From NCBI GenBank assembly GCA_002010305.1, contig MTND01000038.1, forward strand, positions 1-41,273: a DNA stretch of 41,273 bases. The letters are read 5' to 3'. Of the stretch, positions 9,997 through 37,809 are shown in pieces (position 1 is the first letter of the stretch; every line of letters starts with the position of its first letter). This DNA comes from Archaeoglobi archaeon JdFR-42 (GTDB taxonomy: Archaea > Halobacteriota > Archaeoglobi > Archaeoglobales > JdFR-42). The position numbers and the translations under genes were made by a program. Under the pieces are notes generated by a model. It saw nothing but the letters and a program-made list of their open reading frames with translations. It searched no databases and was not told the origin of the DNA.

Positions 9997-11226
9997 TTAT
10001 CCAACTGGAGAGAGTCCTATTTTGATGATGTAGGGCCTTGTGGGCTCCAGAACATTTCCATAGATGCCCTCTCCCTTCCCTATGTCATCGGCAAGGTAGT
10101 AGAAGCTCACAAGATCGTAGAGATTGACAGAGAGAGTTTTCAGGAGCTTATTGAGCTTCGAATCAGGAATGTAGCCCAGGATAAACACTTCATCCACGTT
10201 TTCTATCACCACTTTCTCCATCGAATGAGGGGATTGAGTCTCCAAAAAGACTGTCCATCCGTATGATCTTGCCAGAACTGTTACTGCCCTGATTATGGCC
10301 TGTTTAGCTGGGTTCATGCCCTCCTCAGGGCAGTAGGTATGGGCTTCGGTAATCCCTATGAAGCTCCGGGTTCTCTTAAAATGCCGTTCCATCATGGTCA
10401 GAACTTGGGAGACTATGAACTGCTTTATCTCGTAGTCTCCTATATCCGACAGATCGATGATGTTGATGATCTCCCGATCTATGTAATCCAGAAACGTGTT
10501 ATCCCTTTCAGTCTCGATGAGGCTGTCGTATTCTAAAAGCTCGCAGAACCTCTCTACACTGGCCTGCATGGTTCTGAAATAGGGATCTTCTTCGTAGTTC
10601 TGCAAGATTTCATTGAGCTTTATCCTGAACCTCCGTATGTCCCTTCTTGATCTTACATCCCTCCATGCTCTTTCAATTATTCTATCAGCAATAGATTGAC
10701 CCATCTTCTTACCGATATAGGCCATCAGGGCTGAGTATTCCAGTTCCTGCAAAGGAATCTTGAAGTTCCTTCCTGGAACCAAATATCTCTGAACTGGCTT
10801 ACCATTGGATCTCAACCTCACCGGCTCCACGTTCATTTCCACCAGTCTTTCAGGAGAGGGATGTCTCAGGAAATCGAGATCCCCTCTCTTTTCCTGGAAT
10901 ACCACGATGGAATCATCCCTCGTGGTTCGATAGTGAGCCTGTACAAAGTTTCTGAGGGTGTTAGTTTTGCCTATGCCCTTTCCTGCCACCACTAAAACCA
11001 CTTTTCCTTCCTCTACCCCCCTCCTGCGGGGGTTGTAGTAGTAGGGTTGAGTCCAGAACCGTTTAGGAGAGATTTTATAGCCCAATCTGACTGAATAATC
11101 GCTTCCTCTCCTTTTGTGCTTAATATGGATGGGGAGCTCTTCCTCTTCATCGAAGAGCCTGATGGATGGTTCATACTCCTGGAAAGAAATTGAAGGAGTG
11201 TAGTCAAAGATCCCCATCACCCACAC
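9997..11226 (-). CDS. HerA/FtsK-superfamily ATPase
   Basis: About 409 residues. Walker A is GKGIGKTN at about residue 80, Walker B is the hydrophobic strand FIGIT ending in Glu-Ala-His (ITEAH), with a sensor-like FLETQSPHS further on. These mark the HerA/FtsK family of hexameric DNA or substrate pumps. No NurA partner is encoded nearby, so end-resection is unlikely. In a mobile element next to membrane and secreted proteins it more likely packages DNA or powers transfer or assembly (inference). The start is GTG 11226 or ATG 11217; both overlap the upstream gene's end by 14-23 bp. Confidence 0.82.
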   Translation of the reverse strand: MWVMGIFDYTPSISFQEYEPSIRLFDEEEELPIHIKHKRRGSDYSVRLGYKISPKRFWTQPYYYNPRRRGVEEGKVVLVVAGKGIGKTNTLRNFVQAHYRTTRDDSIVVFQEKRGDLDFLRHPSPERLVEMNVEPVRLRSNGKPVQRYLVPGRNFKIPLQELEYSALMAYIGKKMGQSIADRIIERAWRDVRSRRDIRRFRIKLNEILQNYEEDPYFRTMQASVERFCELLEYDSLIETERDNTFLDYIDREIINIIDLSDIGDYEIKQFIVSQVLTMMERHFKRTRSFIGITEAHTYCPEEGMNPAKQAIIRAVTVLARSYGWTVFLETQSPHSMEKVVIENVDEVFILGYIPDSKLNKLLKTLSVNLYDLVSFYYLADDIGKGEGIYGNVLEPTRPYIIKIGLSPVG

Positions 11227-11854
11227 ACCCTTCCTGGCCTATATTATATTCCGACGTAGCCTTCATTCCAGCCTTCACACTGTGAAGGCTCTCCAGAACT
11301 ATGAAAACCTCCTCTGGAATGGTTACATAGCGTAATCTTCTTTTTCCTGACCCTTTAATTCTCTTGGAGATTTTTAGCAAACCATTTTCCTCTAAAATCC
11401 TCTCATGATCGTAGATTGATTGGAGGTTTTTTCCCAGCTCATCTTTGAAGTCTGATGTGAAGCCTTTGCCTCCCTTCTCGAAAACAAAAGTGAGATAATC
11501 GTAGGTGGCCGGATTGCTCTCCTGCAACTGCTCTATTTTCTTGATGATCTCATTTTCACCTTCGAATAGCTCTTCTTCCTCGTCATCTTCCTCTTCCTCG
11601 ATTATGATGGGAGAGTTATCCCTCTCTTCGACAGTCTCTGCATCCTTCAGCATTGTCAGAACGGCCATGAAGCTCTTGTCCACTTCATCCATTGCTTCAA
11701 TTGCCTTCGTCAATACCTCTGCAAGATACTCCTTGTCGATGTATTCCTTTTCCAGCTCCTTTAATGCCCTGATTAGCTGGTTGTTCCTCAGTTCCATCGA
11801 TCTTGAGATCAGGATCTCTATCTTTTCAATAGGAATCTTGATGAATTTGCTCAT
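11204..11854 (-). CDS. acidic-linker protein with C-terminal winged helix
   Basis: 216 residues: a helical N-terminal half (about 1-80), a highly acidic linker (EEEEDDEEEE near residue 90), then a winged-helix-like segment (about 115-195; YDYLTFVFEKGGKGFTSDFKDEL, then ILEENGLLKISKRI and strand RRLRYVTIPEE). It may be a DNA- or ATPase-binding adaptor. It overlaps the upstream membrane protein by ATGA and the HerA gene by about 20 bp, so it is translated with them. Confidence 0.7.
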   Translation of the reverse strand: MSKFIKIPIEKIEILISRSMELRNNQLIRALKELEKEYIDKEYLAEVLTKAIEAMDEVDKSFMAVLTMLKDAETVEERDNSPIIIEEEEDDEEEELFEGENEIIKKIEQLQESNPATYDYLTFVFEKGGKGFTSDFKDELGKNLQSIYDHERILEENGLLKISKRIKGSGKRRLRYVTIPEEVFIVLESLHSVKAGMKATSEYNIGQEGCVGDGDL

Positions 11855-12753
11855 TCTTCCACCTCATAGGTTCTCTGCCTTAATTTGTTGATGGCATTCC
11901 TTATTTTGTCCTCGTGAACTTCCTGGGCTTCCCTGGGAATGAAATCATCCCTCTCCATCCCCATCCCTAAACCCAGAGGGGGAATGTAGTCTCTTCTATC
12001 CGGATAGATCCTGTATGGATTGGATTTGCTGGCCACCCTAACCAGATTCTCCGTCATTCTCAAAAGCTCGATGTTCAGGTCTCGCATCTTCTGGAAAGCG
12101 TGTCTGTAAGCCCTGTTTTCCTCGATAGTCAATTCAACCCGATCTGGTGGGATCACTCTGAAGGTGTGAGCATCCACCGACATGAGAGTGTGAGCATGGA
12201 TTATGATGTGCTGCTCTCCCACTGTAATGAGTTCCTCCGGGACTTCTATGCGGTGTTTCCCTCTTTTGAAAGCCTTTGCAAGAGCCTGCATTCCGTTTAC
12301 GAGAATGGAGTTATGCCTTGGATAGTAGTAGAAGACATAGAAGCCCTTGTGTCCGTCAAGGCTCAATCTGTCGTAGCTGTCTGTTTTACCCAGAACTGTT
12401 ACATTGCTACCCATTCCGGTTCTTTCATCTGTCCAGAGAATTAGAGTTTTCTTTAATTTGGTTAATCCCTTGTAGTTCTTCTTTAATCTCTTTACTTCCT
12501 CTTCCTTGATTGCCTCTCTTAACTCTTCCTCCACCGATTTCTTGACCTCCATGTCGATAAGCTTCTTCAATTCAGATTTGCTCATTTGAACTCCGTATTC
12601 CTCTGCAACCTTTTCAGCTTCCTGGATCTTCTTTTCCCTCTGCTTGCTCCTTTTTGCTATCAGATATACAGTCAGAGATATGGCAATAACAACTAAAAAT
12701 GTGAAGATGGTTGTAACCGCATCTCTTGAGATATCTAACCCCACTAATGCCAC
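11851..12753 (-). CDS. membrane-anchored coiled-coil protein
   Basis: 300 residues from a GTG at 12753, which overlaps the previous stop (TAGTG) behind GGAGGGAACG. One N-terminal TM (IFTFLVVIAISLTVYLIA) is followed by a basic, then helical region (about 35-95, KSELKKLIDMEVKKSVEEEL), a mixed alpha/beta domain (about 100-215) with repeated HI/IHAHT strands, and a C-terminal tail. The bulk should face the cytoplasm next to HerA. Family not recognised; a secretion or assembly platform component is a guess from context. Confidence 0.7.
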   Translation of the reverse strand: MALVGLDISRDAVTTIFTFLVVIAISLTVYLIAKRSKQREKKIQEAEKVAEEYGVQMSKSELKKLIDMEVKKSVEEELREAIKEEEVKRLKKNYKGLTKLKKTLILWTDERTGMGSNVTVLGKTDSYDRLSLDGHKGFYVFYYYPRHNSILVNGMQALAKAFKRGKHRIEVPEELITVGEQHIIIHAHTLMSVDAHTFRVIPPDRVELTIEENRAYRHAFQKMRDLNIELLRMTENLVRVASKSNPYRIYPDRRDYIPPLGLGMGMERDDFIPREAQEVHEDKIRNAINKLRQRTYEVEE

Positions 12754-13085
12754 TACGTTCCCTCCAGCTTGATCTTAACAATCCTTATGGCCTTCCACTC
12801 CAGGTAGAAGTAGGCAGCCAGAAACACATCCACCAATGAAAAGACCATCAGGAAGGCTGCTATCGTGTTGCCCTGTGCCACCAGATTCAGGTATTCAGGG
12901 TTGATGGCCTGGATCCTCTCTGAATAGCTCTGCGAGATTCCCACTGCGTGGTAGATCTGCCCTGCTATCAGCATCATTACCAAAGCATTGATCAGGAAAA
13001 TGGCCATGACTGCGAAAGGCTCTTTATCGCTTACCTTTTCCTCATTTCTTTCCTCATTTCTTCTTTTTAGATTAAACCCTACCAT
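12753..13085 (-). CDS. small membrane protein, two TM segments
   Basis: 110 residues. After a charged N-terminus (KRRNEERNEEKVSDKE) come two hydrophobic spans (PFAVMAIFLINALVMMLIAG and TIAAFLMVFSLVDVFLAAYF) separated by a roughly 35-residue loop, and a short basic tail. It overlaps genes on both sides by 1-14 bp. Function unknown; part of the membrane complex module. Confidence 0.7.
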   Translation of the reverse strand: MVGFNLKRRNEERNEEKVSDKEPFAVMAIFLINALVMMLIAGQIYHAVGISQSYSERIQAINPEYLNLVAQGNTIAAFLMVFSLVDVFLAAYFYLEWKAIRIVKIKLEGT

Positions 13086-13659
13086 AGAACCACCCCAGAA
13101 TAGTTACAAATACCAGAAAGCCCACAACAAGGTAAACCAGCTTCATTGCGGGATTTTCCTTCAGAAAAGCCTTTATCTGGTCTACTGATGTTGGTCTGTT
13201 CTTTAAATCCTGAACATCAGCTCCTATTGCCGATACCTGCTCCTGCAAAGACTGTAATCTGTTATTGGTCACCTTGACCTGCTGTCTGATTTCATCGGGT
13301 TTCATTGGCTCATAGACATCAGCCCTGTATTCCTTGGCCTGAAAGGTTTTTGTGCCGTAATCGAAGCTGTTTTCTGTTAGAGTCAGGTAGTCTATCCTTA
13401 CCTGTGGATCCGTAACTCTGATGATCCATTCCTGTGGTGTCTCTCCAACTATGAGCCCTCCTGTTACCTTTATCCTGTCTGCCATCGATTTTGGAAAGTA
13501 GATATGGCCACCTATGAACAAACTACCAGTGTATGTTCCGTTAAATGAGTATTTGATTTGGTTCTCCTGGCCGTTTACCGTTGCCATTGCCATAAATCCG
13601 ACAAAGGCAAGGAGAATCGTGTAGATCAACACTAACAACAACCAGGCCTTCCACTTCAT
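13072..13659 (-). CDS. secreted membrane-anchored protein with coiled coil
   Basis: 195 residues. An N-terminal signal or anchor (WLLLVLIYTILLAFVGFMA) is followed by an extracellular strand-rich domain (about 30-115), a coiled-coil segment (QVKVTNNRLQSLQEQVSAIGADVQDL), and a C-terminal TM (LVYLVVGFLVFVTILGWFYG). The layout resembles viral or S-layer-associated surface proteins. The ATG overlaps the TGA of the 44-codon gene upstream (ATGA). Confidence 0.72.
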   Translation of the reverse strand: MKWKAWLLLVLIYTILLAFVGFMAMATVNGQENQIKYSFNGTYTGSLFIGGHIYFPKSMADRIKVTGGLIVGETPQEWIIRVTDPQVRIDYLTLTENSFDYGTKTFQAKEYRADVYEPMKPDEIRQQVKVTNNRLQSLQEQVSAIGADVQDLKNRPTSVDQIKAFLKENPAMKLVYLVVGFLVFVTILGWFYGRV

Positions 13660-13790
13660 AGAATCCTCCTGCCGGTGTTTATGTCGATGATCCCTGGGCT
13701 GTCTCTCTCCTTGAGCTCCTCTACTGCTTCCCTAATCTTCCTCATTTCCTCTATTGCGAGTTCCTTAAACCTGCAATTACGACAGTTCAG
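13656..13790 (-). CDS. 44-residue CxxC protein with probable CTG start
   Basis: The frame reads LNCRNCRFKELAIEEMRKI and onward to GRRIL, a tiny helical protein with an N-terminal CRNC pair. No ATG, GTG or TTG exists at the front. A CTG at 13788-13790 lies behind GGAGGTGATAGC and overlaps the TGA of the upstream gene as CTGA. It sits exactly 18 nt below palindrome site 3, the same spacing as ATG and TTG starts elsewhere. The 3' end overlaps the next gene as ATGA. It may be a zinc or redox mini-protein. Confidence 0.6.
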   Translation of the reverse strand: MNCRNCRFKELAIEEMRKIREAVEELKERDSPGIIDINTGRRIL

Positions 13791-15271
13791 GCTATCACCT
13801 CCATTCTCTTTTCATGTGAAAAATTATTCATGGAGTAGGTGTTCTGGGTTAATTTCGGTAAGAATCCGAGCTTCCAGGCTATTTTCTCCCACCAGACTGG
13901 ATGGCTGATCAGGAGAATTCTGAATTTCTGTACTCCGATCGTTCCAGGTATGAAGACTATCTTTGATTTGCTCTCTCCCAGGTAGTTTTCAATGTAGAAC
14001 TGGCCATAGGTGGTATTCTCCTGGTGTTTCAGTATTGATTGAGCTTTGGTATTGGTTGAGTTGACCTCGTAGAGAATGGCATACAGCTCTTCCTTGTCTG
14101 TGGTGTTGTTCAGGTTGAAGTTGTATATGTCATAGCCTTGTGTGACAGTTGGAAGCAGGAGCTCTGCTCTCTTCTGCTTGATAAACGGTAGATCGAAGAT
14201 TATCAAGAACGGTTTTCTGACTGGAGTAAAATAGCTTGAGACCGTAATGTTTGCCTCATTGTTGTTGTTGATCGTCTCATCCACATCCGTGATGGATGCA
14301 AAGTTAGCAGGGTCTGAATACTTGTAGACCCTTAGATTGTCGAATTTTGCCAGATCATCCGAGTTCCTGGTTGTATACAACCCCAGAGAGCCAGATGCAT
14401 AGCTGGTATCCGTTACGGTTACAGAAGTCCCTCCTATATCTAACTCAAGTTTTGAGCCCTTGATCTTGGCAGTAATGTGATACCAAGTGTTTGGATTGAT
14501 GGTTTTTCCAGAAGTGATTAGATCTGCGGGGGAATCCGATGCCGATTTTTGAATGGCTATGTTGTTTCCGTAAAATCCGGCAACAAAGGTGTAATAGTTC
14601 TTGTTTACATCATCATATCTCCCCAGAATGCCACTTGATCCGAAGTCACCCGTAGTTAGCACATCCACTTCTGCTATGAAGTCAGTCAGGTTTACTGGCA
14701 GGATGGCTTTTGCTCTTTGTGGATTTCCAGAAATCTGAAGGACTCCCTCTCCTGAATTCCAAACCCACGGGCTTCCTCCACCATAAAGGGTATATCTGCT
14801 TGTTGTATCCGTGTCGAAGTTATCATACCACTCAAGGGTCTTTTCTGGGTTGTTGTATGTGGATTTTGCTGCCTTGGTGTTGCCGTATGCGATGTTCAAT
14901 TCTCTGCTCCCATCCGTTAGATTTACTTCGATTGTGGCTGTTTGGTTTACATAATCCCAGTTTTTTAGCCAGAAATGCATCTCTGATCCGGAATCGTTGA
15001 AAACTCTGATGTCATCTCCTGTAGATTGAACCAGACTCCAGAACTGCCCTGAACTGCCGGAAATCTTCAGATTATTTGTAACATTGTAAACTTCAATGGT
15101 TTGACCATTTATCACCACTCTATACTGAGCATGTTCTGCTGGTGGATTCGAAATGGTTATTTTCAGGTGTCTGGTGTATACGTTCCCATCTGAGTCTGTC
15201 CAGGCCGATGCTGTTCCTATTGATGCGATAACAACCAGTATGGCAATTAAATATCTCAATTTAAGCTCCAT
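13787..15271 (-). CDS. DUF2341 / LamG-like secreted surface protein
   Basis: 494 residues. A signal peptide (LRYLIAILVVIASIGTASA) is followed by a DUF2341-like domain (about 20-135; YRVVINGQT, FNDSGSEMHFWLKNWDYVNQTATIEV, NIAYGN) and a concanavalin-like jelly-roll region (about 150-310; WYHITAKIKGSKLELDIGG, SLGLYTTRNSDDLAKFDNLRVY). Archaeal adhesins and virus spike-like proteins use these folds to bind glycans or hosts. The C-terminal third (about 330-494) is strand-rich without an obvious TM. The 3' end contains palindrome site 3 inside the coding sequence. Cell attachment is the likely role (inference). Confidence 0.78.
   Translation of the reverse strand: MELKLRYLIAILVVIASIGTASAWTDSDGNVYTRHLKITISNPPAEHAQYRVVINGQTIEVYNVTNNLKISGSSGQFWSLVQSTGDDIRVFNDSGSEMHFWLKNWDYVNQTATIEVNLTDGSRELNIAYGNTKAAKSTYNNPEKTLEWYDNFDTDTTSRYTLYGGGSPWVWNSGEGVLQISGNPQRAKAILPVNLTDFIAEVDVLTTGDFGSSGILGRYDDVNKNYYTFVAGFYGNNIAIQKSASDSPADLITSGKTINPNTWYHITAKIKGSKLELDIGGTSVTVTDTSYASGSLGLYTTRNSDDLAKFDNLRVYKYSDPANFASITDVDETINNNNEANITVSSYFTPVRKPFLIIFDLPFIKQKRAELLLPTVTQGYDIYNFNLNNTTDKEELYAILYEVNSTNTKAQSILKHQENTTYGQFYIENYLGESKSKIVFIPGTIGVQKFRILLISHPVWWEKIAWKLGFLPKLTQNTYSMNNFSHEKRMEVIA
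13809..13822 (-). promoter_or_regulatory. element palindrome site 3
   Basis: TTTTCATGTGAAAA lying inside the last codons of the DUF2341-like gene and exactly 18 nt upstream of the CTG start of the 44-codon gene. Confidence 0.75.
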
Positions 15272-16610
15272 ACTCTCCCCTCCTGATCAGGTAAACCAGA
15301 AGAGTCAATCCAGCTATTGGAAGAGCATATTTCAGGTCTATGCTTATGCCTGGAGCCTGTGGCTCCTTGAGCTGGACATTTCCAGCTTCTACCACTGCTT
15401 TCGAGGCATTGATCATGCCGTGGACAACCCTGTTATCGGGATCTTTGATCGGGTCTGTGCTGTTGGCTAAAGCATCCTTAACGTTAGCAGAGTTTAGATT
15501 GGGATTGACCTGCTTCATTAATGCAACAACACCAGAAACGATGGGAGTGGCATAGGATGTCCCAGATCCTGTGGTTGTGGTTCCAAATCTGGTTAAGATG
15601 GTTATTTCAACCCCTGGAGCAGCTAAAAAGGCTCCCTTGTTGCTCCAGGATGCTACCTCTCCATACCTGTTTACTGCTCCCACACTTACTACTTCAGGGT
15701 AACCGGCTGGGTAAATGAGCTTGTCGTAGCCCTCGTTTCCTGCTGCTGCCACCAGTATAACCCCTTTGTTGTATAAAGTCTGGATTGCTGTGTGTTCTGC
15801 TGGAGAGTAGACAGGTTGTCCATAACTCATGCTCACAATGGAAACATTGTGCTGGACTGCCCAGTCCAGTCCATCTAAAACATCCGATAGTTTCCCTGCT
15901 CCAGAGTCATCCAGCACCTTTACTGCATAGTAGCTGGCATTGGGAGCTATGCCCTGGAACTGGTCATCTCCCTCTCCTGCCAGTAAGGCTGCCACTGTGG
16001 TTCCGTGGCCTTCTAAATCATTCGGATCCAGATCATCGTAGGCAAAATCATAACCACCCAAATAGTTGTCATCGAGATCTGGGAGCTTGTAATTGACTCC
16101 CGTATCCAGGATGGCAACAACAACTCCTTCACCGGTAATGTTGTTGTAGTGGACAATTGGAAGGCTGATCTGCCTTTGTGCTTCTGTATATCCTGCTTCC
16201 TGGAGTCTATATCTGATGTTAGGAAGCTGTATTTCAGAATTCTCAATCAGGTAAACCTCTCTGTCCTCTTCTATGAATTCAATGGGCTTCTGGCTGATTT
16301 CCTGGATCTGGGAGAAGTTTAGCTCTGCAACAACGTAGGGGATTACCTCTCCTTTTCTCTGGTAAGGGATGTTGTTCTCTCTCAACCATGCTTCTGTGGT
16401 GTTGTTGAGCAGAATTACCGTTCTGAACTTCTTGTATGGTTGTATGGTTGCCTTCCATGCCAGGGTCTTATCCACCTTGGGATTCCCAACCGGGATTGTG
16501 TTGGGATCAGGGGTTTTGATGCTGAAAACGGGATTAATTTGAGTAAAATAGAGAAATCCTGCCAGTGTTAAGCTGACGATTATGATCCCTGCTATCACTC
16601 TGTCGCTCAT
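15261..16610 (-). CDS. membrane-anchored subtilisin-like serine protease
   Basis: 449 residues. An N-terminal TM (VIAGIIIVSLTLAGFLYF) precedes an inhibitor-I9-like propeptide (about 55-120) and the S8 catalytic domain: Asp in VAILDTGVNY, His in EGHGTTVAALLAG, the oxyanion Asn in AAAGNEG, and Ser in GSGTSYATPIVSGVVAL. A C-terminal TM (ALPIAGLTLLVYLI) follows, so the protease is anchored at the cell or particle surface. It could mature the neighbouring surface proteins or help exit through the S-layer (inference). Overlaps the next gene by 11 bp and the previous by ATGA. Confidence 0.92.
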   Translation of the reverse strand: MSDRVIAGIIIVSLTLAGFLYFTQINPVFSIKTPDPNTIPVGNPKVDKTLAWKATIQPYKKFRTVILLNNTTEAWLRENNIPYQRKGEVIPYVVAELNFSQIQEISQKPIEFIEEDREVYLIENSEIQLPNIRYRLQEAGYTEAQRQISLPIVHYNNITGEGVVVAILDTGVNYKLPDLDDNYLGGYDFAYDDLDPNDLEGHGTTVAALLAGEGDDQFQGIAPNASYYAVKVLDDSGAGKLSDVLDGLDWAVQHNVSIVSMSYGQPVYSPAEHTAIQTLYNKGVILVAAAGNEGYDKLIYPAGYPEVVSVGAVNRYGEVASWSNKGAFLAAPGVEITILTRFGTTTTGSGTSYATPIVSGVVALMKQVNPNLNSANVKDALANSTDPIKDPDNRVVHGMINASKAVVEAGNVQLKEPQAPGISIDLKYALPIAGLTLLVYLIRRGEYGA

Positions 16611-16918
16611 ACCCTACCTCCGAGACTGGCTATCTTGTTGCTGATGACCCCAAACCAGGGATACTGACTGACTAACCAGATCCATGCGGGATTGATGAAG
16701 TAGTAGCAGAGCAGGAAATTGATTGCAGTTCCAAATACGAGAGTGGCAACCGTGGAAATCAGAGAAAGAGACCTGAATGCCCATCTCACCACGAAGAACT
16801 CTATAACCAGCCATATCAGGACTACTGGAGTTGATAGACCGATTCCCTGGGCTATCTTGTATATGAACTGGCCTACATATCCGATCACGATCCCAAAAAA
16901 GATCGTCACTGGCTCCAT
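16607..16918 (-). CDS. small polytopic membrane protein
   Basis: 103 residues with about three hydrophobic spans (ITIFFGIVIGYVGQFIY-like N-terminal span, VVLIWLVIEFFVVRWAF, LISTVATLVFGTAINFLLCYYF). No enzymatic motif. The ATG follows a GTGAGGGAATGG stretch that overlaps a degenerate palindrome (site 4); its stop overlaps the protease start (ATGA). It may be a pore or scaffold of the same membrane complex; function unknown. Confidence 0.68.
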   Translation of the reverse strand: MEPVTIFFGIVIGYVGQFIYKIAQGIGLSTPVVLIWLVIEFFVVRWAFRSLSLISTVATLVFGTAINFLLCYYFINPAWIWLVSQYPWFGVISNKIASLGGRV

Positions 16919-16924
16919 TCCATT

Positions 16925-16938
16925 CCCTCACATGAAAA
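16925..16938 (-). promoter_or_regulatory. element palindrome site 4 (degenerate)
   Basis: CCCTCACATGAAAA: one half matches the consensus, the other is diverged. It lies 6 nt from the start of the small membrane-protein gene. Confidence 0.45.
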
Positions 16939-16951
16939 AAGAAAGGAGGGA

Positions 16952-19900
16952 TCAGAAGATCCACCGCAGAATGCCCACGATCACTGCCAGAGCTATGAGA
17001 ACGATGGCTATTGCGTAGATCAGTGTGTCCACGGTTGATATGCCCAGAAGTGGATAGCTCTCTGCTAAAGAGCCTGCTATGTCTCCGAGAATTCCTCCTA
17101 TGATCGGAATCCTGTCTAACAGACTGCCAGATCCAGTGTCTCCTGTAAAGGTCTCATTGCCCACCGTTACGTAGATGGTCTGAGTTGTGCCTTCTGTGGT
17201 CTCAGCATAGACAGAGAAGGTTCCATTCTGTTCGAAGGTGTGCACGTATCCGATCCTTCCGAACAAACCAGTTCCCAATATGCCACCGATTTTAGCTGTA
17301 ACCCCGACAGGAGTTCCATTGACGAAGATCTGAGCTCCTGAAAACCTGTTCCAGTCCCATATACTGGCCACTGAATCCTGTCTGGCTACCTCAAACTCCA
17401 CTTTCTGATTCTTTTTGACGGTGATGTTGCCGATGACGAAGCTGTCCGCGTATCTCGTTCCAGTGAGCTTGCCCTCTGATATGGCCGGTCTTGCCAAAAG
17501 GACTATTGCATTCGGGTTGTTCGGATCCACCGCATCCTTGATCGTTATGGTTATGGTGTCGGCCATTCCGTTCCACTCTGCTATGATTGTGTGTTGCCCT
17601 GGCTGCTGGAAGTCATACGTGAGTTTGGGGAAGAACCAGCCCGATGTCTCTCCTATGGGCTGATCGTCAAGGGTTATGCTCGCTCCTGAAAGCAGGGTTC
17701 CGGAGCTGTCTACTACCTCTATGTTGTGCTTGCCCTTGTATAGTTCTATGTTATCCGCATCATACCCATCCACTCTGACGGTTATTGAGGTTACAGTGGG
17801 CTCCTTGGTGTCTGTCTGGTTGTTGTCGTTCAGGTCTCCTGCGGGCTTGAGAACTACTGTTAAGGAGGTATCTGCCGTTACATTCACGTATTTGCTCAAT
17901 GGGAGGTATTTATTCGAAGGATCAGCTATGACTATGTGATGTGTGCCGGATGGAACTACCAGGATCGCTTCCCCATCTGAGTTGGTGATCTTCTGTTCAA
18001 CCGTTACCCCGTTATTGTCCCTGATGACTGCAATACCTGATAAGGCAGTTCCCTGCGGGTTCTGAACCTTTACCGTGAGGTTTAGATTGCCATTGTCGGT
18101 TGGCTGCTTGTCCTTGAGGCTCTGCAAGACTGTAATTAGCAGTTCTCCTGTTTGCTGACCCTGAACTACTGCATAGATCTTGTGCTGTCCTGGCTGGTTG
18201 AAGGAATACTTGAAGGCCGGGTTGAACCATCCTCCTGTCGTGCCTGCGTAGTTGCCATCGATGTAGATCATGGCATCGCTTACCGTGTCGACAATCTGCC
18301 CTCCAGAGAGCTTGTAGACCTTGAAGGTGACCGATCCTCCCTGATATAACGTGGTTTTGTCAGCAAATAGCTTATACTGATAGCTCTGGCCAGTGTTCGG
18401 ATCCGTAATGGGTTGTGTTCCCGGGTAATTACCTGTTTCATTGGTTCCTCCCTGAACGGGAGTTGCATTGCCTAAAACTTCTATGCTGGCCTGCTGGCTC
18501 TTTACTGAGTTATACACCGCATGGATGTAGTGTGTGCCAGAAGAAGTGATCTGTAATTCTGCGTAGGGCTCTGTATCCACGAATGGGAGCCACCAGAGGA
18601 AAGACCAGAAAGAGTGCTTCTGTGTGGTCTTGCCGGTGGGCTGTCCGTCAAGGTAGATCTCCGCTCCTGTAACGTAGCTGTCAAACCACCAGCTCTTCTT
18701 CTCTCTTACGTATATTTTTACGGTGTCTCCCTCATTGATTGAGTTAGAGGAGAGCTCCACGTAATACTTGCTGTTAGGATCTCCATAGACTGGTTCTGTG
18801 GTGTTATTTCCTGTTCCTCCATTGTTCCCTCCACCATTAGCTGGAGTCCCATACACCTTGTAAAAGGGTGGGCTCACGTCATCCTCGTAGAGCAGGTTTC
18901 CATTGCTGTCTGTGATTGTTACATGGTATGTTAAGCTCGTGTTTAAAGTTGTGATCTCAAAGTAACCGTCCAGATCGGTGTTTATGGTGGTCTCTTCGTC
19001 CTGTCCTATGGAGTTGTAGATTATCCCAGGATTGGTCTGAGGTAGGCCGTCGATGAACGGAATTGTAACCTTGAGCTCATTCCCCATAGAGTCATAGACT
19101 GGATTGGCATTCAGGTCAAACACTTGGAAGGTGTAATTTGATGTGGGTGTCCATCCCGATTGAGAATCGAGCCCTGTGATGTTTATAACTCCATTGGCAT
19201 CTGTGGCTGATGATGATATGTAGTTCATTCCCCAGGGGTTGGTTACCTTGATTAGAGCATTGGAGAGGGGTTGTCCATCCTTATACACGACCAGGGTTAT
19301 ATTGCCCACTCCTGAGGTTGTATTCCCTGAATAGGATGGAGCAGAATAGCTAATCAGATGCTGGATCTTCAGATTTGCTTTATAAACCGCTTTCCCTCCC
19401 TGGTCATAGACATACCCGAAGTATTTGTTTGGAATTACTTGCAGGTAATCCAGAACCTCTAACCGTGGATCGTAGAGGGTCACTTTTAGCTTGATCGGGA
19501 ACTTATCGGGCATTGAGGTAAGCTGGCTCAAATCGTATCCACTTGCCACGTTGGAGACCCACACCGTTCCGTTTTTATCTAAAATGTCTATTCGGGGATT
19601 CGGAGAGCCCGAATAAGAGAGCATGTTGCCCTTGCTGTTTATGTCCTCGATCGTTATGTCCCTTGAAAGGAGGGTTCCCGTTAAGATCTCCTTGTAGTAT
19701 GCCTTGTGTGTCCAGTAGTACTGCTCATAAGCCCCCGATACCTCTATGAAATCCGTGATCTTGTTCAGCATCACGACCTTCGGGGACTCGGTATTGGAGA
19801 CCGTTACCTGCCCGAATGTCTGCATGACTCCATCTGCATCCCTGTATTTGATTGTGAAGGTGTAGGAGGGCAAATTGGCCTGCTGTAACTGTAACTGGGT

Positions 19901-20186: not shown

Positions 20187-20582
20187 TTACGAGCCGGTGA
20201 AGTAGAACTTCTCGGTTGTTGTTGTGTCCTTGGTGATGGTTACGTTAGTCTTGCTCAGGATTGTGCCGTTATAGTCTGCTATCACGTCATAGCTCCCGAC
20301 AGGAACCTTGTTGAAGGTTATAACCGACACATTCTGGCCATTTTCAGTGGTTATAGCTGTTTGCCCTGTAAATTCAGTTCCGAGAATCGAGACCGACACT
20401 CCCTTGAGCGGGCTTGTAGTTGTTGAGTTGTTGATGGTGGTGTTCTGATAGGTGTATACTTTCAGTGTCCCGGTGTCCTGGAAGAAGGGTATGTCGTCAA
20501 GATACCCACCATACCAGGCATAGCCCACACTGCCTATAACCACTGCCGTAAGAACGAATATTGCTGCTGTCCTTGCTTCCAT
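20187..20582 (-). CDS. membrane-anchored PEGA/carboxypeptidase-regulatory-like protein
   Basis: 131 residues from ATG 20582, whose A is the last base of the upstream TGA (TGATG). An N-terminal TM (AAIFVLTAVVIGSVGYAWYGG) leads to one beta-sandwich domain: LKGVSVSILGTEF, TTENGQNVSVITFNKVPVGSYDVIADYNG. The fold matches small regulatory-like domains also present in the 1071-residue neighbour, so the two may assemble together. The longer open frame to 20669 lies inside the upstream gene and is rejected. Confidence 0.75.
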   Translation of the reverse strand: MEARTAAIFVLTAVVIGSVGYAWYGGYLDDIPFFQDTGTLKVYTYQNTTINNSTTTSPLKGVSVSILGTEFTGQTAITTENGQNVSVITFNKVPVGSYDVIADYNGTILSKTNVTITKDTTTTEKFYFTGS

Positions 20583-21184
20583 CAGCCCTTCACCTCCACT
20601 GCTATCAGAGCTGCCAGCAGTCCCAGCAGGATCATCCACAACCACCAGGGCAGTGGCAGAGAATCCCACCAGCCGGCGGTGGCCTGTGAGGTTATTGAGG
20701 CAGTCTCATAGTTGCTCTTCACAGTCATTCCCTGAGTAACGGCAGAAGCATCAGGGCTTGTCGTGAACTGGATCTGCTTGAACCAGGTAAAGCCCTTGCC
20801 CACGTTTATGGCATTGCCGGGAACCAGAATCCTTACCGTATCCTGGTTCACCTTATCTATGTCTATTCTGATTCCAGAACCGGTCTTGAAGACTTTAGCA
20901 TCGCCGTAAACCCACTCCTTCTGATAGCTGAAGCTCGATGGAACTATTGTGATGTGGGCATCCACGGGATAGCTGCTCGTTTTTTCCACTGTCAGGATGA
21001 TCTGGTTAAAACCGTTCTCGCTGGGCTTGTCAGGGGTTATGATGGTCAATCTGGCCTGCTTGGTCAGAATGGTGTCTGTGGCTCCCAGGGCTGGAGAAAT
21101 AGTCAGTATCGCCAGCATCAGCACCACTGAAACCATCACTATTTTCGAACCTACCAAACTTCTCCTACCTACATTTCCTCGCAT
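20582..21184 (-). CDS. secreted protein with C-terminal membrane anchor
   Basis: 200 residues. Signal peptide (KIVMVSVVLMLAILTISPALG, cleavage near GATD), an extracellular strand-rich domain (about 35-170; IILTVEKTSSYPVDAHITIV), and a C-terminal TM (LWMILLGLLAALIAVEVKG) right after a Trp/Pro-rich stretch. A good ribosome site, TGAGGAGG, precedes the ATG. The topology (signal peptide plus tail anchor) is shared with the other surface proteins of the operon, consistent with a virion or vesicle envelope component (inference). Confidence 0.75.
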   Translation of the reverse strand: MRGNVGRRSLVGSKIVMVSVVLMLAILTISPALGATDTILTKQARLTIITPDKPSENGFNQIILTVEKTSSYPVDAHITIVPSSFSYQKEWVYGDAKVFKTGSGIRIDIDKVNQDTVRILVPGNAINVGKGFTWFKQIQFTTSPDASAVTQGMTVKSNYETASITSQATAGWWDSLPLPWWLWMILLGLLAALIAVEVKG

Positions 21185-26187: not shown

Positions 26188-26353
26188 AGAATTCCCCCTT
26201 CTTCTGCTGTTTTAAGATCCTAACTTCGATCCCCAGTTGTTTCAGGTCTCTTACAATAGCTTCAAGATCATCCATGCATTCCCCTCCCAGGAAGCCTGAA
26301 TGATCCACGATCAGCTTTCCATCTTCCAGCATCTCCACCCTGATCGTTTTCAT
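26153..26353 (-). CDS. DUF2997 family protein
   Basis: 66 residues from ATG 26353. The N-terminal KTIRVEMLEDGKLIVDHSGF, followed by GGECMDDLEAIVRDL, matches the DUF2997 pattern (strand, DGK turn, strand, then G-x-x-C before a helix). In bacteria and cyanobacteria this family is often encoded beside Ycf35/DUF1257 and Ycf46-type AAA genes, as here. The start overlaps the DUF1257 stop (ATGA). The longer open frame to 26527 runs through the DUF1257 gene and is rejected. Confidence 0.72.
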   Translation of the reverse strand: MKTIRVEMLEDGKLIVDHSGFLGGECMDDLEAIVRDLKQLGIEVRILKQQKKGEFYARTGNHIRRR

Positions 26354-26736
26354 GCTCTCCTCCCCACGAATGCAAATTTTCTGTCCTTTATGTTGTGTTT
26401 CTGGACTATGTATCCTCTCTTTCTGAGAATTCTCTCGATTGCAACTTCTGCATATTTCTCCTTGAGATATTCTGCATGATGTAACATCATAGAATCGCAG
26501 ATCACCCTTACCATGCCGTGCTCCCATTTGAAGCCTATTCCGTATCCGTCTAATTTTCCTATTTTAACCAGTAGATCCACGTTCTCTGTTTTTCCATGCC
26601 AGTCTCTTACCACTCCGTTTTCCTGAATTGTCCAGTCATAAAACTGATTTTCTGAGTTGATCCTTCTTACTGCTTCCATGATTAGCTGTTTATCCCTCAT
26701 GTTGATTTCAGTCTGAAATTCTGTTAATTCAGACAT
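26350..26736 (-). CDS. Ycf35-like DUF1257 protein
   Basis: 128 residues beginning MSELTEFQTEINMRDKQLIM and continuing with the DUF1257/Ycf35 layout: a WHGKTENVDLLVKI segment, DGYGIGFKWEHGMVRVICDS, a helix with AEYLKEKYAEVAIERIL, and the final RGYIVQKHNIKDRKFAFVG strand pair. Chloroplasts and cyanobacteria carry this protein (ycf35); function unknown. ATG follows AAGGAGGTATAATCA and lies 18 nt below palindrome site 8. It sits between the AAA ATPase and DUF2997 genes, the gene neighbourhood known for this family. Confidence 0.8.
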   Translation of the reverse strand: MSELTEFQTEINMRDKQLIMEAVRRINSENQFYDWTIQENGVVRDWHGKTENVDLLVKIGKLDGYGIGFKWEHGMVRVICDSMMLHHAEYLKEKYAEVAIERILRKRGYIVQKHNIKDRKFAFVGRRA

Positions 26737-26754
26737 TGATTATACCTCCTTCAA

Positions 26755-26768
26755 CTTTCACATGAAAA
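26755..26768 (-). promoter_or_regulatory. element palindrome site 8
   Basis: CTTTCACATGAAAA between the AAA ATPase stop (TGA, then TTTTTTCC) and the DUF1257 start, which is exactly 18 nt away. Confidence 0.75.
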
Positions 26769-26777
26769 TGGAAAAAA

Positions 26778-28307
26778 TCAGAGCTCAATTCTTCTTGCCT
26801 TCGAGCCAGATTCTGAATCCCTGATGCTTGCAGGCTTGCAGTAGATCTCAGCCCACTTCCTTATCCTCTCGATCTCATCTTTCCTCTTCTTACTCAACGG
26901 CATATATCCCTGTATCTCCTCGATGATGTGCTGGTTGTCAAGCTCCAGACCTTCATCAAATGCCCTATACAGGGCTTCAGTTATGATTTGTTCAATTTCA
27001 GCACCACTGTAACCCTCTGTGAGCCTTGCGAATTCTGATATGTCGAAGTTTCCCGGATCTCTTCCTATTTTATTCAGATGAATCCTGAAGATCTCTTCCC
27101 TCTCACTTCGTGAGGGGAGATCCACGTGGAATATGTCATCGAATCTGCCAGCTCGTGTCATCTCTGGTGGAAGTTTGAAGGGATCATTACAGGTAGCCAC
27201 CACGAAAACAGGTTTCTGCCTTTCCTGCATCCAGGTAAGGAGTTGTCCGATAACTCTTGCTGTTACTCCACTGTCGGTCTCTCCTGAGCTTGATATACCT
27301 GCAAAAGCCTTTTCGATTTCATCCACGAATAAGATACAGGGAGCAATTGACTCAGCTATTTTCAGGGCTTCTGCCATGTTCTTTTCCGATTCTCCTACAA
27401 GGCTACCGAAAACCTTTGACATGTCCAGCTTAAGCAGTGGCATCCCGAAGAGCTTTGCAGTTGCCTTTGCAGTCAGGGATTTTCCGGTCCCTGGAGCTCC
27501 TACCATCAATATTCCTTTGGGTGGTCTTAACCCGAATTCCCTTGCTTCCCTGCTGAATGCCTTTTTCCTTCTCATTAACCAGGATTTTAGGTTTTCAAGA
27601 CCTCCTATGTCCTCCATACTCTCCATTGAGTGGTAGTATTCCAGTATGCCGGTCTTCTTGATGATCTGCTCCTTTTCCGTTATGATTGTGGATGGATCAA
27701 GGTTTCTCTTTGCCACTATGGATTTTGCCAGGACATTTTCAAATTCATCAAGAGTTAATCCAAGACCTGCATTCAGGATCGTGTCTGTATTGCCGTTAAG
27801 CTCGATGTTGAGATTCAGGGCTTCATTGACATCCTTGACCATTACTTCAAGGATCTTCCTGAGCTCTTCCTTTTCAGGTAGGGGTATGTCGATCACTGTA
27901 ACGTATTTCTGAAGGTCTATGGGAATGTCAGTGATTGGAGCAAGGAGTATCAGGGTTGAATAGCTGTTTTTGAGCTCAAAGTAGATGTCTTTAAACATCC
28001 TTATGGTCAAAGGCTCCTGGATAAACGGGTGGATGTCTTTCATCAGCATTACTGCCTTTTCCTGGTTAATCAGTTCTGTAAAAGCCATCAGGGAAGAATC
28101 AATGCTCACTGCTCCAGGATCAACATCTTCCAGATCTGCTGTCAGCTTCTGGATGCCCTTCGTGGCAGACCATACGTAAAAGGTCTTTTCAAGATCAGTA
28201 GTGATCTCTGACAGCTTTTGGATGACTCTCTGCTCTTCTGAACTTGTGAGCCAGATTATCGGGTATCTGGCTCGAATAAGGGTTTTGAGCTCCTCCTCCC
28301 AGTTCAT
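26778..28307 (-). CDS. Ycf46-type AAA ATPase
   Basis: 509 residues. An N-terminal alpha/beta domain (about 1-230; RARYPIIWLTSSEEQRVIQKL, TLILLAPITDIP) characteristic of Ycf46 proteins precedes one AAA module: Walker A GAPGTGKS, Walker B CILFVDEIEKAF, sensor 1 VVATCNDP, arginine finger region RAGRFDDIFHVDLP, sensor 2 YSGAEIEQII. ATG at 28307 shares its A with the upstream TGA and follows GGGGTGATC. Such ATPases remodel proteins; the substrate is unknown, with DUF1257 and DUF2997 products as likely partners. Not a second Cdc48: only one ATPase domain and a different N-domain. Confidence 0.88.
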   Translation of the reverse strand: MNWEEELKTLIRARYPIIWLTSSEEQRVIQKLSEITTDLEKTFYVWSATKGIQKLTADLEDVDPGAVSIDSSLMAFTELINQEKAVMLMKDIHPFIQEPLTIRMFKDIYFELKNSYSTLILLAPITDIPIDLQKYVTVIDIPLPEKEELRKILEVMVKDVNEALNLNIELNGNTDTILNAGLGLTLDEFENVLAKSIVAKRNLDPSTIITEKEQIIKKTGILEYYHSMESMEDIGGLENLKSWLMRRKKAFSREAREFGLRPPKGILMVGAPGTGKSLTAKATAKLFGMPLLKLDMSKVFGSLVGESEKNMAEALKIAESIAPCILFVDEIEKAFAGISSSGETDSGVTARVIGQLLTWMQERQKPVFVVATCNDPFKLPPEMTRAGRFDDIFHVDLPSRSEREEIFRIHLNKIGRDPGNFDISEFARLTEGYSGAEIEQIITEALYRAFDEGLELDNQHIIEEIQGYMPLSKKRKDEIERIRKWAEIYCKPASIRDSESGSKARRIEL

Positions 28308-28444
28308 CAGATCACCCCTGTAAAGAAGGAGCAATCCCAGGCAGGATTCACGAAAAACAGGAAGATGTCCAGGTTCTTTGCGGAACAGTAGCCTTTGCTC
28401 AATCCAGTTCTCTTAAAATAAAGGCAGTCATCACATTCTCTCAT
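28307..28444 (-). CDS. 45-residue cysteine-rich protein
   Basis: ATG at 28444 behind GGAGGGGTGCAAT: MRECDDCLYFKRTGLSKGYC, then SAKNLDIFLFFVNPAWDCSFF. Four cysteines (CDDC...C...C) suggest a zinc or iron-sulphur knuckle. Its TGA overlaps the AAA ATPase start (TGATG), so the two are translated together. Upstream codons of the open frame precede the ribosome site and are not used. Confidence 0.65.
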   Translation of the reverse strand: MRECDDCLYFKRTGLSKGYCSAKNLDIFLFFVNPAWDCSFFTGVI

Positions 28445-28532
28445 ATTGCACCCCTCCCTTAAAATTGAGCCCTCCCTGGCATTTTTCAGCCAGAATGAGG
28501 ACACGGATTTAAAAAATTGAGGGAAAGGTTAT

Positions 28533-28788
28533 GAGCATCCACCTTGGGCAACCTGAGGTGTCCGGGGAGGATTGCATGTCGCATCCCTGCCCTATTGAGG
28601 GATCATCGTGGACAGAGCCTGCATGTCCACTCCCTCATTGAATCCCCCAGGCTCATACACCCAGGTTGCTTTCCTGGAATGGGCTTGCTTCCTCCGGGAA
28701 GGCTCAGAATTAAGGTCTTGGTGTCGCCACCTGGAGGGTTTTGCAGGTGAACCCTCTCAGGCTCTGAGTCCCAGCTCCCGGAGACATT
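28533..28788. ncRNA. GC-rich structured RNA candidate, about 255 nt
   Basis: This gene-free stretch is clearly more GC-rich than its surroundings and packed with complementary segments. GCAACCTGAGGTGT (28549) pairs with ACACCCAGGTTGC (28658) as a 13-bp helix with one bulge. Inside it are ATCCCT/AGGGAT and GTGGACA/TGTCCAC hairpins. The 3' part has CTTCC/GGAAG, GGTG/CACC and CTCAG/CTGAG hairpins, and CACCTG/CAGGTG interleaved with GAGGGT/ACCCTC, a pseudoknot pattern. Open frames across it lack ribosome sites. Strand is unresolved: a TATA-like TTTAAAAAA precedes it on plus, and the same site is a T-run terminator if it is read on minus, where CTTAAATAC may be the promoter. It does not match RNase P or SRP RNA signatures I know. 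Confidence 0.55.
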
Positions 28789-28811
28789 ACTACTAATCTA
28801 CTAATTACGGT

Positions 28812-28835
28812 AATACTAATTTTAGAATTAGTATT
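28812..28835. repeat. 10-bp inverted repeat beside the RNA candidate
   Basis: AATACTAATT-TTAG-AATTAGTATT, perfect arms. It could be an operator or terminator stem between the RNA candidate and the AbrB operon. Confidence 0.55.
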
Positions 28836-28845
28836 TAAGTATTTC

Positions 28846-28859
28846 TTTTCACATGAAAA
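28846..28859 (+). promoter_or_regulatory. element palindrome site 9
   Basis: TTTTCACATGAAAA between the RNA candidate and the rightward AbrB operon, about 95 bp upstream of the AbrB ATG; no ribosome site follows directly, unlike most other copies. Confidence 0.72.
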
Positions 28860-28954
28860 TAGAAATGTGTTGAAGTGGGCACAAACTTTTAAGTTATGCC
28901 CACCCTATATCAACATTTAAATAACTGTTAGTATAACTGTTAATAGGTGATGGC

Positions 28955-29113
28955 ATGGGAAAGGGGAATGTAACAACAGTTTACAGGAACAAGGAGGGAC
29001 AGTATCAGACCACAATACCACGTGGTCTGGCTGAAGCAATGGGTCTGGAGAAGGGGTCAAAACTTGAGTGGATGATCGAGGGTAAGAATACCTTCAAGGT
29101 GAGGATCTTATGA
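28955..29113 (+). CDS. AbrB/SpoVT-type DNA-binding protein
   Basis: 52 residues: VTTVYRNKEGQYQTTIPRGL, then AEAMGLEKGSKLEWMIEG and a terminal strand (TFKVRIL). This is one swapped-hairpin AbrB domain, dimeric in family members and usually a transcription regulator or antitoxin. ATG at 28955 after AGGTGATGGC. Its stop overlaps the next ATG (ATGA). A TATA-like ATTTAAATAA lies about 40 bp upstream. It probably regulates its own operon containing the serine recombinase. Confidence 0.82.
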   Translation: MGKGNVTTVYRNKEGQYQTTIPRGLAEAMGLEKGSKLEWMIEGKNTFKVRIL

Positions 29114-29340
29114 GGGAGAGCATATTCCAAGGAGATACCCTTCGGAAAATAGCGATGAAAAGAGGAGAAGTGATCCCTGGATTCGATCCAAAAGGCAGAA
29201 AAGCAAACCACAGACCGAGATGCCCTCATTGTTTAGGAGTGGTCAATGTCGCCCTCGTTAGGGAAGGACATGGACTTAACAGGAAGCTCGTTAAAATCGG
29301 CTATTGGTGCAAACAGTGTGAGGTATTCTTGAGAGAGTAG
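29110..29340 (+). CDS. zinc-ribbon protein
   Basis: 76 residues. A basic N-terminal half (LRKIAMKRGEVIPGFDPKGR) leads to a zinc ribbon with CPHC and CKQC pairs about 28 residues apart. Small single-ribbon proteins of this kind bind nucleic acids or partner proteins. Encoded between the AbrB regulator (4-bp overlap) and the serine recombinase (15-bp gap); since that recombinase lacks the usual C-terminal zinc ribbon, this protein might supply it (inference). Confidence 0.68.
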   Translation: MRESIFQGDTLRKIAMKRGEVIPGFDPKGRKANHRPRCPHCLGVVNVALVREGHGLNRKLVKIGYWCKQCEVFLRE

Positions 29341-29355
29341 GCAGGTGAGGATCTT

Positions 29356-30090
29356 ATGAAGGTTGCAGGGTATGTGAGGGTGAGCACAGCAGATCAGGCT
29401 GAAGGGTTCAGCCTTGAAGCTCAGGAAGACCAGATCAGGAAGTGGTGTGAAGAGAACTCTTACGAACTCGTGAAGGTTTACAGAGATTCAACATCAGGTA
29501 AGCTCCTTGAGAGGGAAGCACTGTTGCAGATGCTCGATGATGCGGAGAAGGGTCTTTTTGATGTGGTGGTTGTAACCGAAGCAGACAGGATAAGCAGAGA
29601 TCTCGACCTAAAGGGATGGATAAAGATTAACCTGATGCATTCTGGGGTTGATCTCATAGAGCTGAACAAGAGGGAGATCCAGACACCTGAGGATCAGTTC
29701 TTTAACCGGTTGATTGAAGCATTTGCAGAGTATGAAACCCTGAGAAGGCAGGCAAGGATAGAGAGGGGAAAGCTGAAGGCTGTGAGGAACGGGATTCCTA
29801 TAACAAGGATGCCAAGAGGTTACAGAAAAAAGAAAGATAAAGTATGGATTGTGGAAGATGAGGCTGAGAAGATCAGGCAGATTTTCAGAGACTACTTGGA
29901 AATAGGGAGCATAAGGGCAGTGGCAAGGAAGCATAACATGCCATATTCAACCGTTAAGAAAATCCTGAGAAATCCTGTTTATGCTGGATACTTCAGCCAT
30001 AACGGCAAGCTCGTAAAGGGGAGTTTTGAGCCTATAATTCCCCTTGATGTGTTTAAGAGGGTGAATCCTGGTTTTGTCAGCAATAAGTAA
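29356..30090 (+). CDS. serine recombinase (resolvase/invertase family)
   Basis: 244 residues. The N-terminal resolvase domain (about 1-140) begins VAGYVRVSTADQAEGFSLEAQ with the nucleophile Ser, and contains VVVTEADRISRD and the FFNRLIEAFAEYETLRRQARIERG helix. A short recombinase domain follows (about 150-235; PRGYRKKKDKVWIVEDEAEKIRQIF, YSTVKKILRNPVYAG). Large serine integrases continue with a zinc ribbon and coiled coil; here the protein stops early, so it is a compact form. It is a second recombinase besides the tyrosine integrase and may resolve multimers, invert DNA or move this operon. Confidence 0.9.
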   Translation: MKVAGYVRVSTADQAEGFSLEAQEDQIRKWCEENSYELVKVYRDSTSGKLLEREALLQMLDDAEKGLFDVVVVTEADRISRDLDLKGWIKINLMHSGVDLIELNKREIQTPEDQFFNRLIEAFAEYETLRRQARIERGKLKAVRNGIPITRMPRGYRKKKDKVWIVEDEAEKIRQIFRDYLEIGSIRAVARKHNMPYSTVKKILRNPVYAGYFSHNGKLVKGSFEPIIPLDVFKRVNPGFVSNK

Positions 30091-30391: not shown

Positions 30392-31120
30392 ATGAGTGTG
30401 GAGATAAAAGAGATAGCTCCAATTGAGCTTTTAGGTCGTAAGTTAAACGAATTTGAGAGAAAATATGCTCCCCCTGTATTATACGTCGCTGGATCGATGA
30501 AAATACCACTACCTGAGCCCCGTGTGGCAGTCATTGGAACAAGAAAACCATCCTCTGATGGAATTAAAGCAGCATCTAAAATAACGAAAGAACTTGTTAA
30601 AAATAAGGTTATTGTTGTTAGTGGCCTTGCAAGGGGTATTGACACTGTCGCACACGAGACAGCAATAAAATGTGGAGGAAAAACAATTGCTGTTTTGGGA
30701 ACTCCTCTCAATGGATTTTATCCTCGTGAAAACAGATCTTTGCAGGAGTTGATAATGAGAGAGCATTTAGCAGTTAGTCAGTATCCTGTAGGTTATATTA
30801 CCAAGCCAAAGCACTTTGTTCTCCGAAATAGAACGATGGCGTTGATTTCCAACGCAAGTATTATTGTTGAAGCTGGAGAAAGTAGCGGTGTAGTTTCTCA
30901 AGGATGGGAAACTCTAAGACTTGGTAGACCGCTCTTCTTCTGGAAGTTACTTGCTGAAAAAGATATAAAATGGGTAAAAGAAATGATTAATTACGGTGCC
31001 AATGTCTTTAAAAATATCAATGACTTGAGGCGTGCTATAAGAGAGCTGATACCACCACCTGCTGAAAAGCCTTCTGAAGTGCTTTCTGTAACAGAGCTGG
31101 GGCTAACAGACGTTGTTTAA
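30392..31120 (+). CDS. DprA/Smf-like SLOG-domain protein
   Basis: 242 residues, close to one Rossmann-like DprA core without the extra winged helix of competence DprA. Motifs: RVAVIGTRKPSSDG, VVSGLARGIDTVAHETA, KTIAVLGTPLNGFYPRENRSL, FVLRNRTMALISNASIIVEAGESSG. Family proteins bind single-stranded DNA or, in the SLOG group, nucleotide ligands. It is followed 6 bp later by a phosphoribosyltransferase gene. Such SLOG/PRTase pairs have been discussed as nucleotide-based conflict systems (recalled literature), so defence is more likely than competence. ATG behind GAGGAGATGAC; the island is AT-rich relative to its neighbours. Confidence 0.88.
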   Translation: MSVEIKEIAPIELLGRKLNEFERKYAPPVLYVAGSMKIPLPEPRVAVIGTRKPSSDGIKAASKITKELVKNKVIVVSGLARGIDTVAHETAIKCGGKTIAVLGTPLNGFYPRENRSLQELIMREHLAVSQYPVGYITKPKHFVLRNRTMALISNASIIVEAGESSGVVSQGWETLRLGRPLFFWKLLAEKDIKWVKEMINYGANVFKNINDLRRAIRELIPPPAEKPSEVLSVTELGLTDVV

Positions 31121-31126
31121 TTTCCT

Positions 31127-31852
31127 ATGTCCATCGAAAATGAAAACGTAATAATAAATGAACTCGAATTTTGCTCTATCTTTTCCTATTGCCCTAGAGA
31201 TAATTCTGATGAGGGATTATTAGCAAAAAGGCTCATGAATCATATAAAAAATGATACAATGATAAAAATCAAGAGGACAGTCTTTATAAAAAATGGGGGA
31301 GTGACAGTTGAGAAAGAACTGTCTGCATCGCAATATGTTGCAGAAGTATTAAAAAAACTAGTGAATGGAGGTTATTTCTCAGATTTCTTCCAAGAAGATA
31401 CAATCCTAATTCCCATGCCTAGAGCTACGCCAATTAAAAAAAGTCAACTTTGGCCATCATTTCAGATAGCAAAGGCGATGGAAAATGAGGGGCTTGGGGT
31501 CGTTAGACCTGTATTAGTAAGAACAAAACCCGTTTTAAAGTCCTCATTAGCTTCACCAAAGCAGAGACCCAAACCAATAGACCACTACGAAAGCATGGGA
31601 ATTAATAAAATGGTGGAACTGGGCTCGAAGAAATTAATATTTGTAGACGATATTGTGACGAGGGGTCACACATTTATGGGGGCTGCTTGGCGACTTAAAG
31701 AAGCTTTTTCAAATGTCGGGATAACTGCATTTGCTGCTATGCAAACTATTAGTAACAAATCTGAATTTAAAAATCACTTTTACCCAGCTAAAGGCACAAT
31801 AAATTATAGAAGAGACGAAAGGGATTGCATACGCAATTGGAAACCAGTTTAG
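31127..31852 (+). CDS. ComF-like phosphoribosyltransferase-domain protein
   Basis: 241 residues. The C-terminal half has the type I PRTase fold: TILIPMPRATPIKKSQLWPS, then the PRPP loop KLIFVDDIVTRGHTFMGAA. The N-terminal 80 residues are unfamiliar and lack the ComF zinc finger. It either uses PRPP to make or remove nucleotides, or senses them. Gene order DprA-like then PRTase with a 6-bp gap suggests a two-component system. No ribosome site before the ATG, consistent with coupling to the upstream gene. Confidence 0.82.
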   Translation: MSIENENVIINELEFCSIFSYCPRDNSDEGLLAKRLMNHIKNDTMIKIKRTVFIKNGGVTVEKELSASQYVAEVLKKLVNGGYFSDFFQEDTILIPMPRATPIKKSQLWPSFQIAKAMENEGLGVVRPVLVRTKPVLKSSLASPKQRPKPIDHYESMGINKMVELGSKKLIFVDDIVTRGHTFMGAAWRLKEAFSNVGITAFAAMQTISNKSEFKNHFYPAKGTINYRRDERDCIRNWKPV

Positions 31853-37797: not shown

Positions 37798-37809
37798 CTG
37801 TCGGCGGCG
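37798..37809 (+). other. attR core
   Basis: CTGTCGGCGGCG, identical to the last 12 bases of tRNA-Asn. It is the displaced original tRNA 3' end; GGTTC just before it also matches the T arm, with six bases missing between. Confidence 0.78.

Follow-up and report, generated by a model that had tools for sequence, protein, structure and literature searches.

Does the GC-rich stretch that lies between two divergent operons in a provirus of Archaeoglobi archaeon JdFR-42 encode a structured RNA, or does it fold well for some other reason? This question arose from a preliminary description of a window of 41,273 nt, by which we mean the whole stretch of DNA that was analysed (contig MTND01000038.1 of assembly GCA_002010305.1, positions 1-41,273, forward strand). 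The features of the candidate and of its surroundings are compiled in Table 1.

Table 1. Coordinates of the candidate island, its structural elements, the neighbouring genes and the promoter-like signals in the window.
Feature	Position	Strand	Remarks
DUF1257 protein	26350..26736	-	leftward operon
AAA ATPase	26778..28334	-	left neighbour
Small cysteine-containing ORF	28307..28504	-	first of leftward operon; ATG at 28444 preceded by GGAGGGGTG ribosome site
TATA-like TTTAAAAAAT	28508..28517	.	+ strand start ~28538; - strand: leftward operon start ~28485; consensus match only
GC-rich gene-free island, candidate structured RNA, ~255 nt	28533..28786	.	GC and fold z-scores
Domain closed by 13-bp helix	28548..28669	.	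28548-28555/28662-28669 and 28557-28561/28657-28661; A28556 bulged
Two-part hairpin	28596..28637	.	TGAGGGA/TCCCTCA and GTGGACA/TGTCCAC; 9-nt loop
Pseudoknot-like pair, 7 bp	28615..28654	.	loop 28615-28621 GAGCCTG with 28648-28654 CAGGCTC
3' hairpin domain	28692..28783	.	closed by CTCCGGGA/TCCCGGAG
BRE/TATA-like GAAATACTTAAATA	28832..28845	-	start ~28809; consensus match only
TCAACATTTAAATA	28910..28923	+	best TATA-like match; probable rightward-operon promoter, start ~28946
MazE/AbrB-like DNA-binding protein	28955..29113	+	right neighbour
76-aa ORF	29110..29340	+	rightward operon
Serine recombinase	29356..30090	+	rightward operon

The island lies in an integrated element, whose host is marked as an archaeon by an rRNA match. 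A tyrosine integrase gene (5979-7184) comes after a tRNA-Asn gene (5808), and the 12-nt sequence of the tRNA-Asn 3' end, CTGTCGGCGGCG (about 5869-5880), is repeated directly at 37798-37809; with these repeats as the probable att sites, the provirus would measure about 31.9 kb. Two genomes from the host's order harbour related proviruses (L127, L128 and L131). They have in common a virion-like block corresponding to positions 9997-17071 of the window, with weaker matches around 20358-21139, and L131 shows an integrase-like match near a tRNA-Gln. No comparable island was found in these relatives having the same virion genes, and the region around it is not common to them, so that the island falls in the accessory portion of the element, which varies between relatives.

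The provirus has further features of its own. The palindrome TTTTCACRTGAAAA occurs at ten of its sites (5941, 8455, 13809, 21626, 25358, 26009, 26755, 28846, 33074 and 34491), with 16 strand-wise matches in the element versus 1.06 expected, and is rare elsewhere in the 2.15-Mb genome. In several cases a GGAGG-like ribosome site at a gene boundary follows it within a few nucleotides, and it might possibly represent an element-wide operator or a 5'-UTR element. Two copies are present in a second integrated element of the same genome (contig C1, within 50000-69999). This element also has a homologue (61% identity) of the protein encoded at 11204-11854; the matching region contains an in-frame TGA. 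Moreover, the provirus carries a ShosTA-like anti-phage toxin-antitoxin pair (30392-31852, + strand), in which one gene matches the ShosA model (E 2e-73) and the gene next to it the ShosT model (E 8.9e-26).

In base composition the island differs from its surroundings, having a GC content of 0.579 (28533-28786) versus 0.425 for the whole provirus and 0.31-0.48 for the remaining intergenic gaps. Its proposed gene-free nature was confirmed, since it contains no recognised ORF and sits in a 510-base gap between divergent operons, the leftward one comprising the small ORF, the AAA ATPase and the DUF1257 protein and the rightward one the MazE/AbrB-like ORF, the 76-aa ORF and the serine recombinase. 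The divergent setting was likewise confirmed, and TATA-like boxes, identified by consensus match, as well as a T6 run are present. The left TATA-like box probably also serves the leftward operon, and the T6 run at 28512-28517 (within TTTAAAAAAT) would suit the end of a - strand transcript. A terminator-like hairpin was looked for and not found. A strand call from the adenine content of unpaired positions (41% on the - strand, 23% on the + strand) was rejected, the shuffled sequences having nearly the same adenine content and the tRNA control indicating the wrong strand.

Two observations concern the neighbouring genes. An inverted repeat, GTGGGCACAA/TTATGCCCAC at 28875-28903, flanks a TATA-like AACTTTTAAGTT in front of the MazE-like gene and is a possible operator. 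In the DUF1257/AAA ATPase pair (26350-28334, - strand), the AAA protein is closest (at most about 49% identity) to one protein of a Treponema plasmid and one of Hodarchaeota, a relationship which suggests that the pair may have moved between domains. A literature search turned up no work on either this element or archaeal DUF1257 proteins.

As evidence for structure in the island, the energy of the whole fold outweighs the number of its stems. Compared with dinucleotide-preserving shuffles (400 per strand), the island reached z-scores of -3.28 on the + strand and -3.11 on the - strand, with equally good shuffles in 0 of 400 and 1 of 400 cases, respectively; on either strand its energy thus falls below that of the shuffles, as expected of a structured RNA. 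In a scan of about 215 windows of 256 nt, it was lowest in energy and second in z behind the window containing tRNA-Asn. In coarse scans, protein-coding parts of related loci also came down to z of about -3.8, and a high-z window of L127 falls within an integrase gene, a sign that coarse z-scores give false positives. Perfect stems of at least 7 bp number 7 versus 2.9 expected (p = 0.03) and those of at least 8 bp 3 versus 0.8 expected (p = 0.04). This is a modest excess, and the preliminary description, which spoke of far more complementary segments than chance, overstated it.

The individual elements of the fold were confirmed. The proposed 13-bp closing helix is exact, with a single bulged A, and the several hairpins and the interleaved pair are both present in the sequence. 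The closing helix is missing from the minimum free energy (MFE) structure of the + strand (-114.9 kcal/mol), where forcing it gives -113.3 kcal/mol, i.e. a cost of 1.6 kcal/mol, and it is part of the MFE structure of the - strand. The pseudoknot-like duplex contributes -11.3 kcal/mol. When the closing helix is imposed while the two pseudoknot segments stay free, the remainder folds at -111.9 kcal/mol, and in this model the pseudoknotted form would be energetically comparable to the MFE structure after a penalty is added. The full pseudoknot would be under steric strain as long as the lower stem stays closed, because the 10-nt connector is short for spanning the 14-bp hairpin stem. Moreover, the loop region has a competing partner (28613-28621 with 28758-28766, 9 bp), a pairing predicted to disrupt the 3' domain.

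The search for known families using Rfam 15 over the whole window returned tRNA-Asn at 5808 as the only match; no family reached the gathering cut-off for the island, in line with the earlier statement that claimed no known RNA class for it. At E values up to 10, two sub-threshold, chance-like matches appeared in 28300-29000, the best of them to a human lncRNA model (E 0.15). Using blastn, no homologue of the island was found in the host genome, in the same family, in 394 genomes of the phylum or in phage or plasmid records, and the 394 genomes gave short chance-level matches only, mostly of 16-42 nt. A viral contig (L032) having 17 nt in common with the island was rejected, its surroundings reading as unrelated coding DNA. 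A single-sequence covariance model of the island, which detects only moderately diverged relatives, gave self or chance-level matches only in the 394 phylum genomes and the 40 nearest ones (looser filters), and no homologue at 80 AAA-ATPase loci and in the related proviruses (filters off). At the level of contigs, six scans covered viral contigs and one covered genome contigs, mostly via neighbouring proteins; no relative of the AAA ATPase, of the recombinase or of two other proteins of the element came up among the viral contigs. The sole viral-contig match of the 76-aa ORF (L037) was discarded, as the ORFs there resemble those of a high-GC bacterial phage. A link of the island to the AAA module was rejected too, no common island being present upstream of archaeal and bacterial AAA relatives. 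Across these collections, then, no homologue turned up from which covariation could be computed.

The main rival to an RNA gene is a spacer or control region of DNA between divergent promoters, with operator-like dyads, in which the fold would be a by-product of GC content and internal repeats. Promoter-like boxes do diverge on either side of the island, and its short direct repeats (28573/28620 and 28648/28758) and inverted repeats could be protein sites. Moreover, the two strands fold almost equally well, which is expected for any GC-rich, dyad-bearing stretch, and this together with the lack of homologues weakens the RNA reading. However, about 255 nt of such GC-rich sequence would be unusual for archaeal promoter DNA, given the 31-48% GC of the other gaps of the element, and the fold energy is better than that of composition-matched shuffles. 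We regard a purely DNA-level role as possible, though on the whole unlikely. The same energy argues against a decayed piece of foreign, more GC-rich DNA, either an old insertion or a gene remnant, as a decaying sequence would not be expected to fold better than its shuffled versions. Such an origin would account for a composition unlike that of the element and for the lack of the island in related proviruses; the tested ORFs are nevertheless without protein-family similarity and no DNA match exists in the phages or plasmids searched, which makes it rather improbable.

The two remaining explanations have little in their favour. Two overlapping + strand ORFs of 62-68 codons cross the island, 28544-28750 starting with TTG and 28608-28796 starting with GTG, and either might be taken for a short protein-coding gene. 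However, a Pfam search of the ORFs across the island gave no significant match, tblastn of the longer one against plasmids found none, and no recognised protein homologue emerged; together with the TTG and GTG starts, this renders a coding function very improbable. Equally slight is the chance that the island is a known type of archaeal RNA in diverged form, for example an H/ACA guide. The 3' domain does appear to end in GGAG-ACA, the ACA following right after a basal stem of 8 bp and lying 15 nt from a possible pocket, yet the Rfam matches at E up to 10 were irrelevant and a mobile setting would be unusual. Using one pocket model, the deduced target has a single genomic match, at about chance level and in no Rfam RNA, so that identity as an H/ACA guide is not supported.

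We favour, at a probability of roughly 0.45, the reading of the island as a provirus gene for a small, lineage-specific noncoding RNA that is transcribed on its own and is particular to this element or to close relatives of it. The z-scores of -3.3 and -3.1, the rank beside a real tRNA and the GC content of 0.58 versus 0.425 speak for it, as do the gene-free divergent gap, the ORFs without Pfam match, the TATA-like boxes suitably spaced on either strand and the 13-bp closing helix with compatible hairpins. It is weakened by the modest stem excess (p = 0.03), the lack of a homologue and of a terminator-like hairpin, and the related proviruses without the island. The earlier proposal, that the mobile element carries a structured RNA, is thus partly supported and stays the best single reading, with the island as a reasonable candidate for an orphan ncRNA. 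One of the flanking TATA-like boxes, either that at 28508 (+) or that at 28845-28832 (-), would drive transcription of a stable RNA some 255-290 nt long. Its predicted fold has two domains, a 5' one that is closed and multi-branched and may contain the pseudoknot, and a 3' one formed by a hairpin. The loop 28615-28621, with its two competing partners (28648-28654 and 28758-28766), would permit alternative folds, and the RNA would most likely act as a trans-acting or protein-binding regulator of the element. A bolder reading, which seems unlikely to us, takes the island as the first known representative of a new RNA class, about 255 nt long, possibly pseudoknotted and carried by archaeal tRNA-integrated proviruses. 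To our knowledge, few structured RNAs of archaeal viruses or proviruses have been characterised, and a confirmed RNA would offer a concrete handle on RNA-level control in archaeal proviruses; one sequence with a better-than-chance fold makes it a candidate and not a discovery.

Compared with known systems, the island shares with the archaeal H/ACA guides one hairpin domain directly followed by ACA, and differs from them in having no Rfam match, no rRNA target under one pocket model and a poorly fitting pocket geometry. With the large ornate phage RNAs, which the preliminary description had brought up for comparison and to which GOLLD and ROOL belong, it has in common a noncoding island in a mobile element and a multi-domain fold. 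GOLLD and ROOL are several hundred nucleotides long, widely conserved with covariation and represented by Rfam models, whereas the island of about 255 nt matches neither model; nothing beyond size and isolation favours that likeness. A further comparison is offered by the intergenic ncRNAs of Pyrococcus abyssi, GC-rich intergenic noncoding RNAs of archaea (PMC3124441). In contrast to these RNAs, our candidate sits in a provirus, is predicted from its sequence and showed no conservation in the collections searched. It resembles them in its intergenic position, its stable fold, the lack of a recognised ORF and the archaeal promoter-like boxes that flank it (PMC3124441).
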